DNA of 64,000 nt, from NCBI RefSeq assembly GCF_002803515.1, contig NZ_PHQX01000001.1:4092001-4156000 (forward strand). Direction: 5' to 3'. The notes beneath the pieces are model-generated. The model ran no database searches. It saw nothing but the letters and a program-made list of their open reading frames with translations, and was not told where the DNA came from. The stretch's first letter is position 1. Each line of letters begins with the position of its first letter. A program made the position numbers and the translations under genes. Below, piece after piece: positions 29,789 to 40,302 of this stretch. The stretch is from Stenotrophomonas lactitubi. GTDB lineage: Bacteria > Pseudomonadota > Gammaproteobacteria > Xanthomonadales > Xanthomonadaceae.

Positions 29789-29840
29789 TGCGGATTCCCC
29801 TGCTGAGCGATGGCCCAGCGTGGCGCAGCAGCGCACAAAT

Positions 29841-29962
29841 AAAAAGCCCCGCTGACCAGGGGGAGGTCAACGGGGCCGGGGAACGGGTGCTTGGGGAGGA
29901 GCCCCCGTTCCGAGATCTGCTCCAGGGGATGGGAGAGATCCACAACAGGCATTGCGCCTGTC
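29841..29962 (-). ncRNA. sX13-like small RNA downstream of polA
   Basis: On the minus strand a -10-like TATAAC (29972-29967) is followed by about 120 bases that fold into consecutive hairpins. These are ACAGGC/GCCTGT; GATCT...AGATC with an ATCCCC loop; GGAACGGG/CCCGTTCC with a CTCCTCCCC loop; and a terminator stem GCCCCG-TTGACC/GGTCAGCGGGGC with a TCCCCC loop and a TTTTTATTT tail. C-rich loops and this place beside polA are the traits of Xanthomonas sX13, an Hfq-independent regulator of virulence genes. E. coli Spot 42 also lies beside polA. No clear -35 box is seen. Ends are estimated from the -10 and terminator. Confidence 0.78.
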
Positions 29963-34116: not shown

Positions 34117-35133
34117 TCAGGCCTGCACCGTCACCCGCCAGCCACCCTCGTGCGGTTGCCAGTCGAATTCCACCGGCAGGAACTTCTCGATCAACCGCGC
34201 ATTGCTGACCAGGTGATCGCTCAGCACATGGGTGGTGAACGCACCGCCGCCCGCCAGCGCCATCGGCAGCAGCAACTGGTCGGACAGGTACTCGCCAACG
34301 GCACCCGCCCCGTCCAGGTACTGCTTCACCTGCCCGGCCAGGCGCGCGCCGACCTGCTCGGCGGAGACACTGCGCTCGCCATGCCCGCTGAACACCTCCA
34401 CGTGGTCGCCATGCCGCACGCGCACCAGGGCAACGTTGCCCGGTCCCAGCGCCGGCCGTATCGACTGCACGTTGCGCGGATGCGGGTCCACGCCCAGCGT
34501 CTCGGCCAGTACCTGCAGTTCGCGCAGGCCGATGCCGCTGGACAGACCGGACATCAGCACCTGTGCCTCGATCGCCTGCAACGGCGCACGCACCTCCAGC
34601 GACGGCGGCTGCAATGCCCCGCACGGCTGCACCTGCACCTCCATCACGCCACCGCCTGCCGGGTGAAAGCCGTGCTGCAGCAGCTGCATCGACGCCTGCA
34701 CGCCCATCCGTTGCAGCGCCGGCAGATAGCTGTCGGCGATGAAGTCCGCACTGGGCGCCAGCGGGTTGTGGGTACCGCCTTCCAGGCGCAGCTGCGACGC
34801 CCCCTGCGCGCGCCACAGCGCCGGCAGCACGGTCTGCAGCACCAGCGTTGCCGAGCCGCTGCTGCCGGTCGCGAAATGATAGTCGCCAGCGCTCACCGCA
34901 CCCGGCTCGAAGCGAAGCGAGGTAGCGCCCAGTTCTGCACCGTGCACACACGCGTTGCCGACCCGCGCCGCGGCGTTCACCGCGGTCAGGTGCTGGCGCA
35001 TCAATCCCGGCTTACGCCGGATCGCGCGGATGTTGTGCAGCGTGAAGCCTGTGCCTGTGCACAGGCTCAATGTCAACGCCGAGCGCAGCAGCTGTCCGCC
35101 ACCATGCCCGCCATCCAGTTCAATCATGTCCAT
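34117..35133 (-). CDS. rtcA: RNA 3'-terminal phosphate cyclase
   Basis: A 338-residue RtcA. It starts MDMIELDGGHGGGQLLR, where GGGQ(L/I)LR is the family's N-terminal signature, and has FATGSSGSATLVLQT, GTHNPLAPSADF and HPAGGG. The His in THVLSDHL near residue 310 fits the adenylated catalytic histidine of E. coli RtcA. It converts an RNA 3'-phosphate to a 2',3'-cyclic phosphate with ATP, feeding RtcB. Located 82 bases after rtcB in the same operon. An alternative start at 35127 is possible. Confidence 0.97.
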   Translation of the reverse strand: MDMIELDGGHGGGQLLRSALTLSLCTGTGFTLHNIRAIRRKPGLMRQHLTAVNAAARVGNACVHGAELGATSLRFEPGAVSAGDYHFATGSSGSATLVLQTVLPALWRAQGASQLRLEGGTHNPLAPSADFIADSYLPALQRMGVQASMQLLQHGFHPAGGGVMEVQVQPCGALQPPSLEVRAPLQAIEAQVLMSGLSSGIGLRELQVLAETLGVDPHPRNVQSIRPALGPGNVALVRVRHGDHVEVFSGHGERSVSAEQVGARLAGQVKQYLDGAGAVGEYLSDQLLLPMALAGGGAFTTHVLSDHLVSNARLIEKFLPVEFDWQPHEGGWRVTVQA

Positions 35134-35215: not shown

Positions 35216-36442
<1,227 letters not shown>

Positions 36443-36480: not shown

Positions 36481-36597
36481 GTGCGGTGACAAAGGTGGTG
36501 GAACATTCCGTCCCCCACGTTGCCGTGGGGGGCGGCCGGGACTTGAACCCGACCCCGAAGGGCTTCCGATGTAGTTCCACCTGCATTCCCCGCGCAA
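36481..36597 (-). ncRNA. Y-RNA-like module 3 (T-arm only)
   Basis: Third and rtcB-proximal module. It begins with GAATGCAGGTGGAACTACA, whose GGTGGAAC (36581-36574) pairs with GTTCCACC (36504-36497), and ends with TTGTCACCGCAC, the same ending as module 1. Inside are a UUCG-capped hairpin (CCC-TTCG-GGG), a T-arm with loop TTCAAGT (36552-36536) and a long stem CCG-CCCCCAC / GTGGGGG-ACGG with a GGCAAC loop. There is no D-arm. The T-rich stretch CTTCTTTGTTTTTG follows and could weaken read-through to rtcB. Confidence 0.7.
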
Positions 36598-36610
36598 CGA
36601 AAGCGAAGGT

Positions 36611-36748
36611 GCCGGCAGCACGACAAGAATCTGGAGGAACATCCTGCTCTACCACTGAGCTACCGCCGCGTTGCCGCGGCAGGCGGGAGTCGAACCCGCG
36701 ACCTGGAGCTTAAGAGGCTGTAGTTCCTCCGGCATTCGCGCTGCCGGC
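36611..36748 (-). ncRNA. YrlA-like Y RNA module 2 with complete permuted tRNA-like domain
   Basis: Ends pair through GCCGGCAGCGCGA/TCGTGCTGCCGGC (13 bp, one wobble), then through GGAGGAAC (36730-36723) with GTTCCTCC (36640-36633). Between them lies a tRNA in permuted order. The 3' half comes first: anticodon-like GC-CTCTTAA-GC-TCC, variable AGGTC, T-arm GCGGG-TTCGACT-CCCGC (36699-36683), acceptor CTGCCGC. Then comes a GGCAAC loop, followed by the 5' half: acceptor GCGGCGG, TA, D-arm GCTC-AGTGGTA-GAGC (36660-36646), A, GGA. Bacterial YrlA RNAs tether Rsr and mimic tRNA, which matches its place beside rsr. Confidence 0.82.
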
Positions 36749-36789
36749 GGTGAATCGGTGGCACCGTTGCCGGTGCCGTTTGAAAAGGT

Positions 36790-36898
36790 GCGGTGACAAG
36801 GGAAGTGGAACGTCTGCTTCCTCACGACAGGCAGGAAACGCGGGACTCGAACCCGACCCCGAAGGGACAACCAATGTAGTTCCACCAGCATTCACCGC
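36790..36898 (-). ncRNA. Y-RNA-like module 1 (T-arm only)
   Basis: First module after rsr. GCGGTGA (36898-36892) pairs with TCACCGC (36796-36790). The shared GAATGCTGGTGGAACTACA block supplies GTGGAAC, which pairs with GTTCCAC (36811-36805). Inside are CCC-TTCG-GGG, a T-arm with loop TTCGAGT (36855-36841) and an acceptor-like stem GTTTCCT/AGGAAGC (36839-36816). No D-arm is seen. Likely bound by Rsr like module 2. Confidence 0.7.
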
Positions 36899-36918: not shown

Positions 36919-36946
36919 GCCCGGCTGGCCCCATTGCCAGCCGGGC
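36919..36946 (-). promoter_or_regulatory. Hairpin between rsr and the Y-RNA modules
   Basis: A perfect 11-bp stem GCCCGGCTGGC/GCCAGCCGGGC with a six-base loop lies 26 bases after the rsr stop. T residues (TTTTT) come only 18 bases later, so it is not a standard intrinsic terminator. It may be a processing site, an attenuator or a 3'-end protector of rsr mRNA that separates it from the Y RNAs. Confidence 0.5.
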
Positions 36947-36971: not shown

Positions 36972-38519
36972 TTACAACGCCATGTCCTGGATGCGCTGGA
37001 CCCAGCTGCTGCCGTCCTCGGCCGCAGCGGCGTACTGCGCGATCAGGTCGAACACCGCATCGCTGAAGCCTCCGATGTGCAGCACGTCACCGCGCTGCAC
37101 GGTCTGGCTGCTGGCCACCGGCTGCAGGTCGATGCACACCAGCCGCGCCTGCGGGCAGCGACGCTTCAGTGCATCCCACTGCAGCATCGTGGCCGTCTGC
37201 CCACCCTGGCGGGTGTCACGCCAACTCTCGTTGTCCGACACCATCACCACCAGGTCCACCGGCTCGCGCTTCAGGTTGAGGTACTGCAGCGGCGCGCTGA
37301 CCGACGTACCGCCACCGTTGATCGCCAGCTGGCGGGCCAACGTCATCACGCTGTCGCGCGGGTTCAACCGCACGTGGCGCACTTCGGTATCGAACGGCAA
37401 TACCTTGGCCTGCGGCTGTCCGCGCAGCACGCAGGCTGCAACCAGCGCCGCCACGTCCACACAGCGTGCCGCGGTACTGGCGCCCTTGCGGTAGCCGGTT
37501 ACCGGCGACTGCATGGAACCGGACACGTCCACCGCCACCACCACCCGCCCCGGCAATGCCGGCGCCGACGCCGTCGCGATCTCCATCGCATCCTGCAGCG
37601 CTTCCAGGATCGGCGACGGCAAGCCAGCACCCGCGTGGAAGGCCATCAGCAGCTGGTACGGCAGTACACGGGCACGACGCACCTGCTGCGGATCACGCAG
37701 GCGATCTGCGATCACCTGCACCATCGCCGGATCATCGAACACGCCGTTGCGGGCGAACGTGTTGAGGTTCATCCGCATCGACTGCCACGATGCATTGCGG
37801 GCCAGTGCCGACCACTGCGCCGCATCCAGCGGCAGCGTGCTGTAGTACTGGAACGGCAGGTCCGGCGGCAGTCCGCGCGGGTCACGCTTGAACGCTTCGT
37901 AGGCCTGCACGACCGCCGGCAGCTGCGCCTCGTCGTACGGACGACCGATGATCCATGCGTACAACGCCTTGCGCTCGGCGTTGGCGGGCTTCGGGTGCAC
38001 CATGCGGATCACATCGGCCAGCGACGGCTGCTGGCCGATTGCCGCACGCACCAGCGTTTCCGCCGACGCCTGCTGGATCCACTCGCGCACCCTGCGCTTG
38101 GGCAGCGAGCCCAGCGAACGACGCCCCACCTGGCCACTGCGCATGATCTGCACGAAGGTGCGCAGCTGGCGGCCGTTGTCGATCACCTGCGGGAACGCCA
38201 GGGCGAATGCCTCCGGATCACGCAGGCTGAGCACCGCCAGCAGCAGTGCCGGCATGTCCTTCATATGTGCGACCTGGCGGGCGTACAGCGCGGTGCGGGC
38301 GATGAAGCGCGGCTCGACCTGCGCGGTCAGCGCCAGCACCTGCTGCAGCTGCGCCTCGGCGTCGCTGTAGAAGGTGTTGTTCAGGCACCCGGTGGCCGCA
38401 TACAGCGCCAGCGCTGCACGCGGGTCGCGGCGGTAGGCCAGGCCACCAGCTTCATTGACGGTGTCTGCCTGCGGCGGCTGCGGCGTGCGCATCCAGGAGA
38501 AGAGCGAAAGGTTGGCCAT
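36972..38519 (-). CDS. rsr: Rsr, bacterial Ro60 orthologue (TROVE domain protein)
   Basis: A 515-residue protein. The N-terminal about 320 residues are a TROVE/HEAT-like ring region (for example LYARQVAHMKDMPALLLAVL), followed by a vWA domain with the MIDAS motif DVSGSM at 331-336. Rsr binds Y RNAs on the outer surface and misfolded or 3'-end RNA in its central hole, and acts with PNPase in RNA decay in other bacteria. The start at 38519 has a GAGGA site. It is the first gene after a sigma-54 promoter and is followed by the Y-RNA modules, rtcB and rtcA, as in Salmonella. Confidence 0.95.
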   Translation of the reverse strand: MANLSLFSWMRTPQPPQADTVNEAGGLAYRRDPRAALALYAATGCLNNTFYSDAEAQLQQVLALTAQVEPRFIARTALYARQVAHMKDMPALLLAVLSLRDPEAFALAFPQVIDNGRQLRTFVQIMRSGQVGRRSLGSLPKRRVREWIQQASAETLVRAAIGQQPSLADVIRMVHPKPANAERKALYAWIIGRPYDEAQLPAVVQAYEAFKRDPRGLPPDLPFQYYSTLPLDAAQWSALARNASWQSMRMNLNTFARNGVFDDPAMVQVIADRLRDPQQVRRARVLPYQLLMAFHAGAGLPSPILEALQDAMEIATASAPALPGRVVVAVDVSGSMQSPVTGYRKGASTAARCVDVAALVAACVLRGQPQAKVLPFDTEVRHVRLNPRDSVMTLARQLAINGGGTSVSAPLQYLNLKREPVDLVVMVSDNESWRDTRQGGQTATMLQWDALKRRCPQARLVCIDLQPVASSQTVQRGDVLHIGGFSDAVFDLIAQYAAAAEDGSSWVQRIQDMAL

Positions 38520-38568: not shown

Positions 38569-38585
38569 AGCAATGGCCGTGCCAA
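38569..38585 (-). promoter_or_regulatory. Sigma-54 promoter of the rsr-rtcBA operon
   Basis: Minus-strand TTGGCACGGCCATTGCT has the -24 GG and -12 GC elements with correct spacing and matches the sigma-54 consensus closely. It lies 50 bases upstream of the rsr ATG and is divergent from rtcR, which encodes a sigma-54 activator. Expected to be silent until RtcR is activated by RNA damage. Confidence 0.9.
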
Positions 38586-38706
38586 CTTTTCTCGCAAGTA
38601 TCCATGCGATTGATTTTCATGGAATTTCTTTTGAATCGAGCTATCTTGACCAGCGAGACGTGGCGAAAAGATATATATTTCTCGCGCCAATTTTATAGGA
38701 ATGGAT

Positions 38707-40302
38707 ATGAAGCGTCGACAGGTGGTCTTCGGCATGCTCGGCACCCAGCTCGACGCGGGCGAAGGCCCGGGCCGCTGGCAGAAGTGGCGCCCGACGGTGT
38801 CACTGGGCATGCATGAGGATTTCCTGCCCGACCGCATCGAACTGCTGTTGGATGAGCGCCGCTACAGCAAGCTGGCGCGGGTGGTCTGCGAGGATCTGGT
38901 GCAGGCGGCGCCGGGCATCAGCGTGCAGCGACACGACACCTACCTGGCGGATCCGTGGGAATTCGAGGGGGTCTACGCCACCCTGCATGACTTCCTCGCC
39001 AGCTATCCGTTCCAGCCGGAGGAGGAGGACTACTACGTCCACATCACCACCGGCACGCACGTCGCGCAGATCTGCTGGTTCCTGCTGACCGAGAGCCGGC
39101 ACTTCCCCGGCCGCCTGTTGCAGACCTCGCCGCCGCGCAAGCAGGACGGCGCCGCCGGCACGTACGCGGTCATCGACCTCGATCTATCGCGTTACGACCA
39201 CATCGCCCAGCGTTTTGCCCAGCAGCAGCTGCAGGACCGCGACCTGCTGAAGGGCGGCATCGCCACCCGCAACGCCGCCTTCAACCGCATGATCGAACAG
39301 ATCGAAACAGTGGCCACGCGCTCGCGCGCACCGATGCTGCTGATGGGGCCGACCGGTGCAGGCAAGAGCCAGCTGGCCAAGCGTGTGTTCGAGCTGAAGA
39401 AGCTCAAGCACCAGTTGCCGGGTCGCTTCGTCGAGGTGAACTGCGCGACCCTGCGCGGCGACGGTGCGATGAGCACCCTGTTCGGCCATACCAAGGGCGC
39501 CTATACCGGTGCTTCCAGCGACCGTGCCGGCCTGCTGCGCTCAGCCCACCAGGGCCTGCTGTTCCTGGACGAGATCGGCGAACTCGGCCAGGACGAACAG
39601 GCGATGCTGCTGCGGGCGCTGGAAGAGAAGCGGTTCCTGCCGGTAGGCAGCGACCGCGAAGTGGAGAGCGACTTCCAGCTGATCGCCGGCACCAACCGCG
39701 ACCTGCAGCAGTCGGTGCTGGAAGGCCGCTTCCGCGAAGACCTGCTGGCACGCCTCAACCTGTGGACCTACCGCCTGCCGGGCCTGGCCCAGCGCATGGA
39801 GGACATCGAACCGAACATCGAGTTCGAGCTGGAACGCTGGTCGCAGGACCAGCATGCGCGGGTACGTTTCAACGTCGAGGCACGCACGCGTTATCTGGCA
39901 TTCGCCACCAGCCCGGAAGCCGCGTGGCGCGGCAACTTCCGCGATCTGGGCGCGTCGATCATGCGCCTGGCCACCTTGGCGAGTGCCGGGCGCATCCAGA
40001 TCGAGGGCGTGGAGGACGAGATCGTGCGCCTGCGGGCGCAGTGGCGCGGCGGCGATGCGCCTTCACCGCTGGATGCACTGTTGGGCGATGCCGTGGACAC
40101 GCTGGACCGTTTCGATCGCGTGCAGCTGGAAGAAGTGGTGCGGGTCTGTGCGCGCTCGAAATCGCTGTCCGCTGCGGGTCGCGAGCTGTTTGCGGTCTCG
40201 CGCACGCAGCGCGCCAGCACCAACGACGCCGACCGCCTGCGCAAGTATCTGGCCAAGTTCGGGCTGGACTGGGAGCAGGTGCAGGGTCCGGCCATGTCCT
40301 AG
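38707..40302 (+). CDS. rtcR: RtcR, sigma-54-dependent activator of the RNA repair operon
   Basis: A 531-residue activator. The N-terminal about 180 residues form the CARF-like sensor (HITTGTHVAQICWFLL), which in E. coli RtcR responds to RNA with 2',3'-cyclic phosphate ends. The AAA+ domain has Walker A GPTGAGKS (214-221), a GAYTGA loop (264-269; the usual form is GAFTGA), and LFLDEIGEL. A helix-turn-helix region (SLSAAGRELFAVSRTQRAS) follows. The ATG at 38707 is preferred over 38701 because AGGA sits just before 38701 and the E. coli protein aligns at MKRRQVVFG. Confidence 0.96.
   Translation: MKRRQVVFGMLGTQLDAGEGPGRWQKWRPTVSLGMHEDFLPDRIELLLDERRYSKLARVVCEDLVQAAPGISVQRHDTYLADPWEFEGVYATLHDFLASYPFQPEEEDYYVHITTGTHVAQICWFLLTESRHFPGRLLQTSPPRKQDGAAGTYAVIDLDLSRYDHIAQRFAQQQLQDRDLLKGGIATRNAAFNRMIEQIETVATRSRAPMLLMGPTGAGKSQLAKRVFELKKLKHQLPGRFVEVNCATLRGDGAMSTLFGHTKGAYTGASSDRAGLLRSAHQGLLFLDEIGELGQDEQAMLLRALEEKRFLPVGSDREVESDFQLIAGTNRDLQQSVLEGRFREDLLARLNLWTYRLPGLAQRMEDIEPNIEFELERWSQDQHARVRFNVEARTRYLAFATSPEAAWRGNFRDLGASIMRLATLASAGRIQIEGVEDEIVRLRAQWRGGDAPSPLDALLGDAVDTLDRFDRVQLEEVVRVCARSKSLSAAGRELFAVSRTQRASTNDADRLRKYLAKFGLDWEQVQGPAMS

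Follow-up and report, generated by a model that had tools for sequence, protein, structure and literature searches.

The region between rsr and rtcB in the window (the whole stretch of 64,000 nucleotides analyzed here) probably encodes three Rsr-linked Y RNAs in tandem, which belong to an RNA-repair operon of the RtcR/sigma-54 type and whose tRNA-like heads would dock tRNA-recognizing enzymes. The structural identity of the modules can be proposed with even greater confidence from their sequence and pairing: all three are predicted to carry Ro-binding helices, the head of module 2 appears as a permuted tRNA with four arms, and modules 1 and 3 are D-armless. As read from its sequence, module 2 is a Y RNA whose head is a whole tRNA with the halves swapped, anticodon arm included. 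Because the damage that induces the operon occurs in the anticodon arm of tRNAs, the anticodon-armed head makes the reason for the presence of Y RNAs in bacterial RNA-repair operons directly testable.

The rsr–rtcB locus and its modules

The order of the RNA-repair operon is rsr, Y RNA array, rtcB and rtcA, with a divergent rtcR and a sigma-54-type promoter. The elements of the locus are listed below, together with the scores of the R1 model, which was built from module 2 and its relatives.

34117–35133, minus strand: rtcA, RNA 3′-phosphate cyclase (PF01137, 1.2e-71)
35216–36442, minus strand: rtcB, RNA ligase (PF01139, 4.6e-128)
36481–36594, minus strand: module 3, predicted D-armless Y RNA with a GCAA-capped acceptor-like hairpin (R1, 47.2 bits)
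36611–36748, minus strand: module 2 with its outer stem, predicted Y RNA with a circularly permuted full tRNA cloverleaf as head (R1, 140.2 bits)
36788–36898, minus strand: module 1, predicted D-armless Y RNA (R1, 48.5 bits; class alignment A3, covarying stems)
36972–38519, minus strand: rsr, upstream of the array, Ro60/TROVE protein of 515 aa with the start codon set at MANLSLF (PF25045 vWA_Ro60, 9.5e-17; PF05731 TROVE, 2.9e-07)
38569–38584, minus strand: sigma-54-type promoter TGGCACGGCCATTGCT, upstream of rsr, the sole match to the scanned pattern in the window
38701–40302, plus strand: rtcR, divergent sigma-54 activator (PF06956, 2.9e-75; PF00158, 4.4e-49)

The pattern behind the promoter TGGCACGGCCATTGCT follows the sigma-54 consensus.

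The initial annotation had placed three Y-RNA-like modules on the minus strand between rsr and rtcB, and this was confirmed by the motif, the Rfam matches and the gene neighbors. The window contains exactly three copies of GAATGC-N-GGWGGAACTACA, each on the minus strand (starts 36893, 36737 and 36588), with no additional window match at up to two mismatches and none in 100 shuffles. The array is encoded beside the Rsr/Ro60 gene, as is characteristic of bacterial Y RNAs, and the conserved Ro-binding helix was found in all three modules, both in sequence and in pairing. In the covariance search that had been proposed as a check, each of the modules matches the Rfam family RF02553 (YrlA), but none reaches the curated threshold of 69 bits: module 2 scores 66.5 bits, module 1 32.5 bits and module 3 30.9 bits. 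Module 2 is therefore named YrlA-like and is not placed in RF02553. The D, T and acceptor arms of YrlA are found in module 2, and the D arm is absent from modules 1 and 3.

The details of the shared layout fared differently. The T-loops TTCGAGT, TTCGACT and TTCAAGT are present as described, and modules 1 and 3 do end in the same TCACCGCAC. The 3′ strand given as GTTCCWCC for all units holds for modules 2 and 3, whereas module 1 reads GTTCCACT, so the outermost pair of its inner stem is G-U; the inner stem, described as perfect throughout, is imperfect in this module only. The covariation at the W position would be weak evidence from three units alone, yet it is upheld in the relatives. Among 59 modules of the module 2 type, the pair is C-G in 20, U-A in 14, A-U in 13, G-C in 7 and U-G in 2, with 3 unpaired, while 34 modules of the module 1 and 3 type have U-A in 22, C-G in 8, U-G in 2 and A-U in 1, with 1 unpaired. 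The paired W positions are thus kept in these related genomes, and their loss, which had been named as a refutation, is not seen in the 59 and 34 modules. The view of the modules as Y-RNA-like parts of an rsr/rtcB operon is supported by Rfam matches, gene linkage and covariation together, and the suggestion of a small family with divergent inner domains agrees with the two architectures found in the array.

Terminator-like sites number three in the 2.3 kb scanned (1.7 expected), and two of them overlap at the end of module 2 (36609–36625). None was found after modules 1 and 3 in the same 2.3 kb, so the formation of separate RNAs there would require processing. On the minus strand at 36919–36946, about 25 bases past the rsr stop, there is a GC-rich hairpin without a T run (GCCCGGCTGGC..GCCAGCCGGGC), which is perhaps a processing or stabilizing element. 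The sole Rfam match above cut-off in the window is the sX13 sRNA (RF02232, 122 bits), located at 29840–29953 on the minus strand.

The permuted cloverleaf of module 2

Module 2 forms row 1 of the alignment of the R1 model, and the ends of its outer stem were read by eye. Its predicted parts, all on the minus strand, are given below with the pairing of the corresponding helices in the 59 modules.

36622–36640, minus strand: 3′ side of the Ro-binding element, inner stem GUUCCUCC followed by UUGUC (RF02553 consensus and 59-module pairing)
36646–36660, minus strand: D arm GCUC-AGUGGUA-GAGC (helix 7, 100% paired but invariant)
36663–36682, minus strand: acceptor stem of 7 bp, loop-closed and without free ends (helix 6, 97.8% paired)
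36683–36699, minus strand: T arm GCGGG-UUCGACU-CCCGC (helix 5, 100% of cells paired)
36707–36719, minus strand: anticodon-arm mimic AGC-CUCUUAA-GCU, tRNA positions 29–41, with the loop at 36710–36716 (geometry of relatives, compensatory changes)
36723–36737, minus strand: 5′ side of the Ro-binding element, GAAUGC with inner stem GGAGGAAC (RF02553 consensus; helix 2, 98.7% paired)

In this arrangement, the Ro-binding stem separates tRNA positions 28 and 29. Relative to the Rfam YrlA consensus, the anticodon arm is an insertion of 13 nt, composed of 3 bp and a 7-nt loop, CUCUUAA, which is identical to that of the tRNA-Lys CUU of the genome. Neither the circular permutation nor this arm had been noted in the initial annotation. 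When module 2 is folded by itself, the anticodon hairpin is missing from the minimum-energy structure, and therefore the arm rests on comparison. The same fold lengthens the acceptor stem by one pair, to a GCAA tetraloop; six of the seven pairs of this stem are changed on both sides within the 59 modules.

A motif search gave 90 distinct D-armed modules, many of which share one geometry; others lack this arm and have a shorter segment. Counted backward from the T stem, the shared geometry consists of five variable-loop bases, two pairing bases, a 3-bp stem and a loop of exactly seven bases, and the partners of the two pairing bases are two bases that follow the D arm. Three Watson-Crick pairs stand at the expected places in 49 of the 52 distinct segments of at least 18 nt (mean 0.9 and maximum 6 in 2000 shuffles).

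A module entered the set of 59 if it had a T loop and a D arm, if its anticodon stem paired, if its 3′ stem and tail were found and if it was at most 150 nt long; identical cores were removed, L048–L051 were left out as copies of genus genomes, and the window copy replaces L006. The choice of T loop, D arm and anticodon stem builds in some of the pairing and some of the ARAGORN score described below, and the rows are related rather than independent. All three pairs of the stem vary within this set: pair 29-41 is A-T in 51 modules, T-A in 4, C-G in 2 and G-C in 2; pair 30-40 is G-C in 40, C-G in 14, A-T in 4 and T-A in 1; and pair 31-39 is C-G in 39, A-T in 17, G-C in 2 and T-A in 1. Pair 27-43, which had no part in the choice of rows, is G-C in 42 and C-G in 17, and pair 28-42 is G-C in all 59. 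In the MAFFT alignment, with a few rows misplaced, 96.2% of cells are paired overall, compared with 34–45% in slid controls, and 90.1% in the anticodon arm; 23 pairs are changed on both sides against a shuffled mean of 15.7.

An un-permuted module 2 is called tRNA-Lys(ctt) by ARAGORN, that is, it reads as a tRNA when reordered, as a permuted tRNA gene does. With the halves in tRNA order, 58 of the 59 modules are called, whether CCA is added or not, compared with none of 1180 shuffled sequences. No module is called in the native order (0/59) or after removal of the anticodon hairpin (0/59). The program hardly tests the acceptor stem, because 736 of 1180 chimeras, in which the 5′ part of one locus is combined with the 3′ part of another, are still accepted. 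As the 59 modules were chosen for the D arm, T loop and anticodon stem, the result outside this training set matters more: 48 of 61 modules are called, or 44 of 57 without known copies, against 0 of 1220 shuffled. These 61 were drawn from 228 modules, of which 123 have no recognized D arm or T loop and 44 have too short a segment; at least four of the 61 copy training rows (L048_4017, L050_5952, L051_5945 and L085_5812, all called), and L112 and L182 may represent one genome. The calls come from Neisseria, Cardiobacterium, Dyella, an Acidobacteriota bacterium and others, and the anticodon loop is irregular in five of the 48. One of the 13 modules not called after un-permuting is the enterobacterial YrlA.

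The D-armless modules

Modules 1 and 3 and their relatives share a layout in which a hairpin directly precedes the T arm, which is usually followed by an acceptor-like hairpin, and the D arm is absent. Module 1 consists of the Ro-binding stem, a hairpin resembling a variable arm (CCC-UUCG-GGG), the T arm and the acceptor-like hairpin, and its single-sequence fold is weakly better than shuffles (z −1.7). In the class of 34 modules, 94.5% of the cells of the outer stem, inner stem, hairpin and T stem are paired (39–53% in slid controls), and 14 pairs are changed on both sides compared with 5.9 in shuffled alignments. The acceptor hairpin is missing in one module each of two loci, L015 and L016. 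The D-armless module of the enterobacterial array aligns with modules 1 and 3.

Distribution and array size

The R1 model gave 275 matches in the 88 sources searched, every one of them on the same strand as rsr. The classes A1, A2, B and C, assigned to 272 of the 275 with the three window rows omitted, are rough regular-expression types. The named rsr loci are the best 80 of 116 Rsr-encoding stretches and are for this reason biased to the kin of the query. Modules were found in 78 of these 80, from one to six per locus. A single module is present at 3 loci and a pair at 17, and arrays of three, four, five and six modules were found at 31, 16, 8 and 3 loci, respectively. Because three is the commonest count among the best 80 of 116, it is regarded as the usual number, and the presence of three tandem units, which the initial annotation had singled out, is not notable in itself. 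Within the same best 80, no module was found in L049, where the contig ends 96 bases past rsr, or in L076.

Within the genus, 16 of 91 genomes encode Rsr. Model matches of at least 89 bits are confined to these 16, in each of which the best match reaches at least 121 bits; the top match in the 75 genomes without Rsr is 54.4 bits, in a search whose filters lose some weak matches. The Rfam YrlA cut-off recovers only two of the 16 arrays of the genus, and runs of ordinary tRNA genes score weakly below it. Weak YrlA matches at the five loci checked (L018, L019, L022, L023 and L025) were rejected as arrays of ordinary tRNA genes, which resemble a permuted tRNA because the 3′ half of one gene precedes the 5′ half of the next. 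The other weak matches in the genus away from rsr are taken to be ordinary tRNA arrays too.

Outside the genus, Rsr is patchy, with matches in 7 of 369 genomes of the class, several of them in part only. The anticodon-armed type reaches Alphaproteobacteria and plasmids, since plasmid pA of Rhizobium etli (L193, 5108–5782) carries five model matches between rsr and rtcB, the first of them anticodon-armed. The table of the X. sacchari plasmid, which omits RNA genes, has no entry between rsr and rtcB, and a near match to the enterobacterial array was not found in E. coli. A phage origin was considered and rejected: of 326 phage records matching Rsr, three were examined, and the only complete phage genome among them, Myxococcus phage Mx1, contains no module by motif scan or model.

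Possible roles of the array

In the proposed mechanism, the accumulation of cut tRNAs would switch the operon on, the array would be processed to separate RNAs, and Rsr would bind the stems of the modules. The heads would then imitate either a tRNA or its T/acceptor half and dock tRNA-recognizing enzymes. That such tethering is the main role is given an even chance.

An alternative that is possible but unlikely holds that module 2 serves mainly as bait for anticodon nucleases, its loop being cut in place of that of a tRNA. Such a cut would be resealable, because RtcB and RtcA are encoded in the same operon. The loop invites this reading, as its seven nucleotides have a tRNA-like frame (C32 in 50, U33 in 54 and A37 in 57 of the 59 rows), within which position 34 is the most variable and position 36 the fourth among the tRNA positions compared, with the D loop and acceptor loop left out. 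Among the named loci, anticodon-armed modules also occur in 51 of the 63 that have rtcB within reach and in 5 of the 17 that do not (p 1e-4), a comparison within the best 80 of 116 that ignores kinship and includes loci cut short by contig ends. In the accessible part of PMC7790460, the Salmonella operon is described as responding to cut tRNAs, with anticodon-loop cuts in tRNAs accompanying induction, and Hughes et al. suggest that YrlA may competitively inhibit an anticodon nuclease. The same portion of that paper reports that no YrlA fragments were observed in Salmonella, which speaks against bait, though enterobacterial YrlA has no callable anticodon arm. Modules 1 and 3 have no arm to offer. 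Mimicry of particular tRNAs was likewise considered and is not claimed, because loop matches are no commoner than column shuffling gives (6 of 33 distinct loops match a host tRNA loop; mean 3.5, p 0.11). An extended version appears improbable: a whole-tRNA-like Y RNA with a freely changing anticodon would be a renewable bait, cut by the anticodon nucleases of phages or toxins, with its 5′ part, ending in a 2′,3′-cyclic phosphate, feeding the activation of RtcR, RtcB resealing the rest, and the D-armless sisters serving other steps.

The composition of position 35 is a separate observation. No G is found there in 28 distinct loops of the 59 rows, compared with 11 such loops among 41 of the host (p 0.002, without regard to kinship), and T is present in 42 of the 59 modules, unlike in host tRNA loops. 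At least one module outside the 59 rows, in L116 (Thr cgt), does have G at this position.

It is similarly doubtful that the anticodon-like hairpin only braces the junction, with seven loop bases by chance and a head otherwise like that of Salmonella YrlA. D-armed modules without the arm do occur within the same arrays, the enterobacterial YrlA is not called as a tRNA, and only 12 of the 15 genus rows retain U33, with position 34 tied with 59 for the top variability and 36 third. However, a plain brace needs no such frame as that of the 59 rows, where U33 and A37 are kept while 34 and 36 vary.

A less probable explanation takes 36.44–36.97 kb as one structured untranslated region, which stabilizes or attenuates the rsr–rtcB transcript and yields no separate RNAs. 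This stretch does fold better than shuffles (z −4.2), and the scan gave no sigma-70-like promoter match within the array. Against it, the modules are recurring units, each with an outer stem of its own, which vary in number and order and at some loci lie upstream of rsr (e.g., L091 and L094), and YrlA is described in the accessible part of PMC8394870 as an RNA of 90–150 nt. The maturation of module 2 to a working tRNA, by joining of 28 to 29 with RtcB as the ligase and removal of the acceptor loop, is highly improbable: the 3′ half does precede the 5′ half beside an RNA ligase gene and the reordered halves are called tRNA-Lys(ctt), but the acceptor is loop-closed, the Ro-binding stems are conserved, the CCA end had to be added in the script (the calls being independent of it), tRNA-Lys(ctt) is already present in the genome, and 22 of the 28 distinct loops of the 59-module set, loops with UCA included, match no tRNA loop of the host genome.

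Comparison with known systems

In the permuted tRNA genes of red algae, the 3′ half precedes the 5′ half. Module 2 shares this order of the halves, but its ends form a Ro-binding helix, its acceptor is closed by a loop, and signs of a mature tRNA are absent. With YrlA (RF02553; S. Typhimurium YrlA, 6CU1), it has in common the Ro-binding helix, the permuted D/T/acceptor head and the location between rsr and rtcB. In the accessible part of PMC8394870, YrlA is described as resembling the D, T and acceptor arms, as being modified by DusA and TruB, and as a partner of PNPase; compared with the arms named there, module 2 adds an anticodon arm and modules 1 and 3 are without the D arm. The available portion of PMC11472068 reports that the Y RNA 6CU1 superposes on tRNA via circular permutation.

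The enterobacterial rsr–array–rtcB locus (L189 and L190) also has three modules by eye, namely a minimal one, YrlA and a D-armless one, and the R1 model detects the latter two. Unlike module 2, its YrlA is not called as a tRNA after un-permuting. The published operon name, rsr-yrlBA-rtcBA, implies two Y RNAs; the three modules seen by eye at 690–1061 of L189, an enterobacterial contig filed as phage, are one above the two of the yrlBA name. The literature searched, which leaves out the primary papers of Chen (2014), Wang (2018) and Sim (2018 and 2020), gave no recognized description of an anticodon arm in a Y RNA. More tRNA-like relatives may be present in mycobacteria.

The tethering model adopted here is that of Deinococcus radiodurans, in which, according to the accessible part of PMC7790460, a Y RNA tethers Rsr to PNPase. 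The tRNA-like bacterial Y RNAs were known already, and it is the anticodon-armed variant that is provisionally regarded as new.
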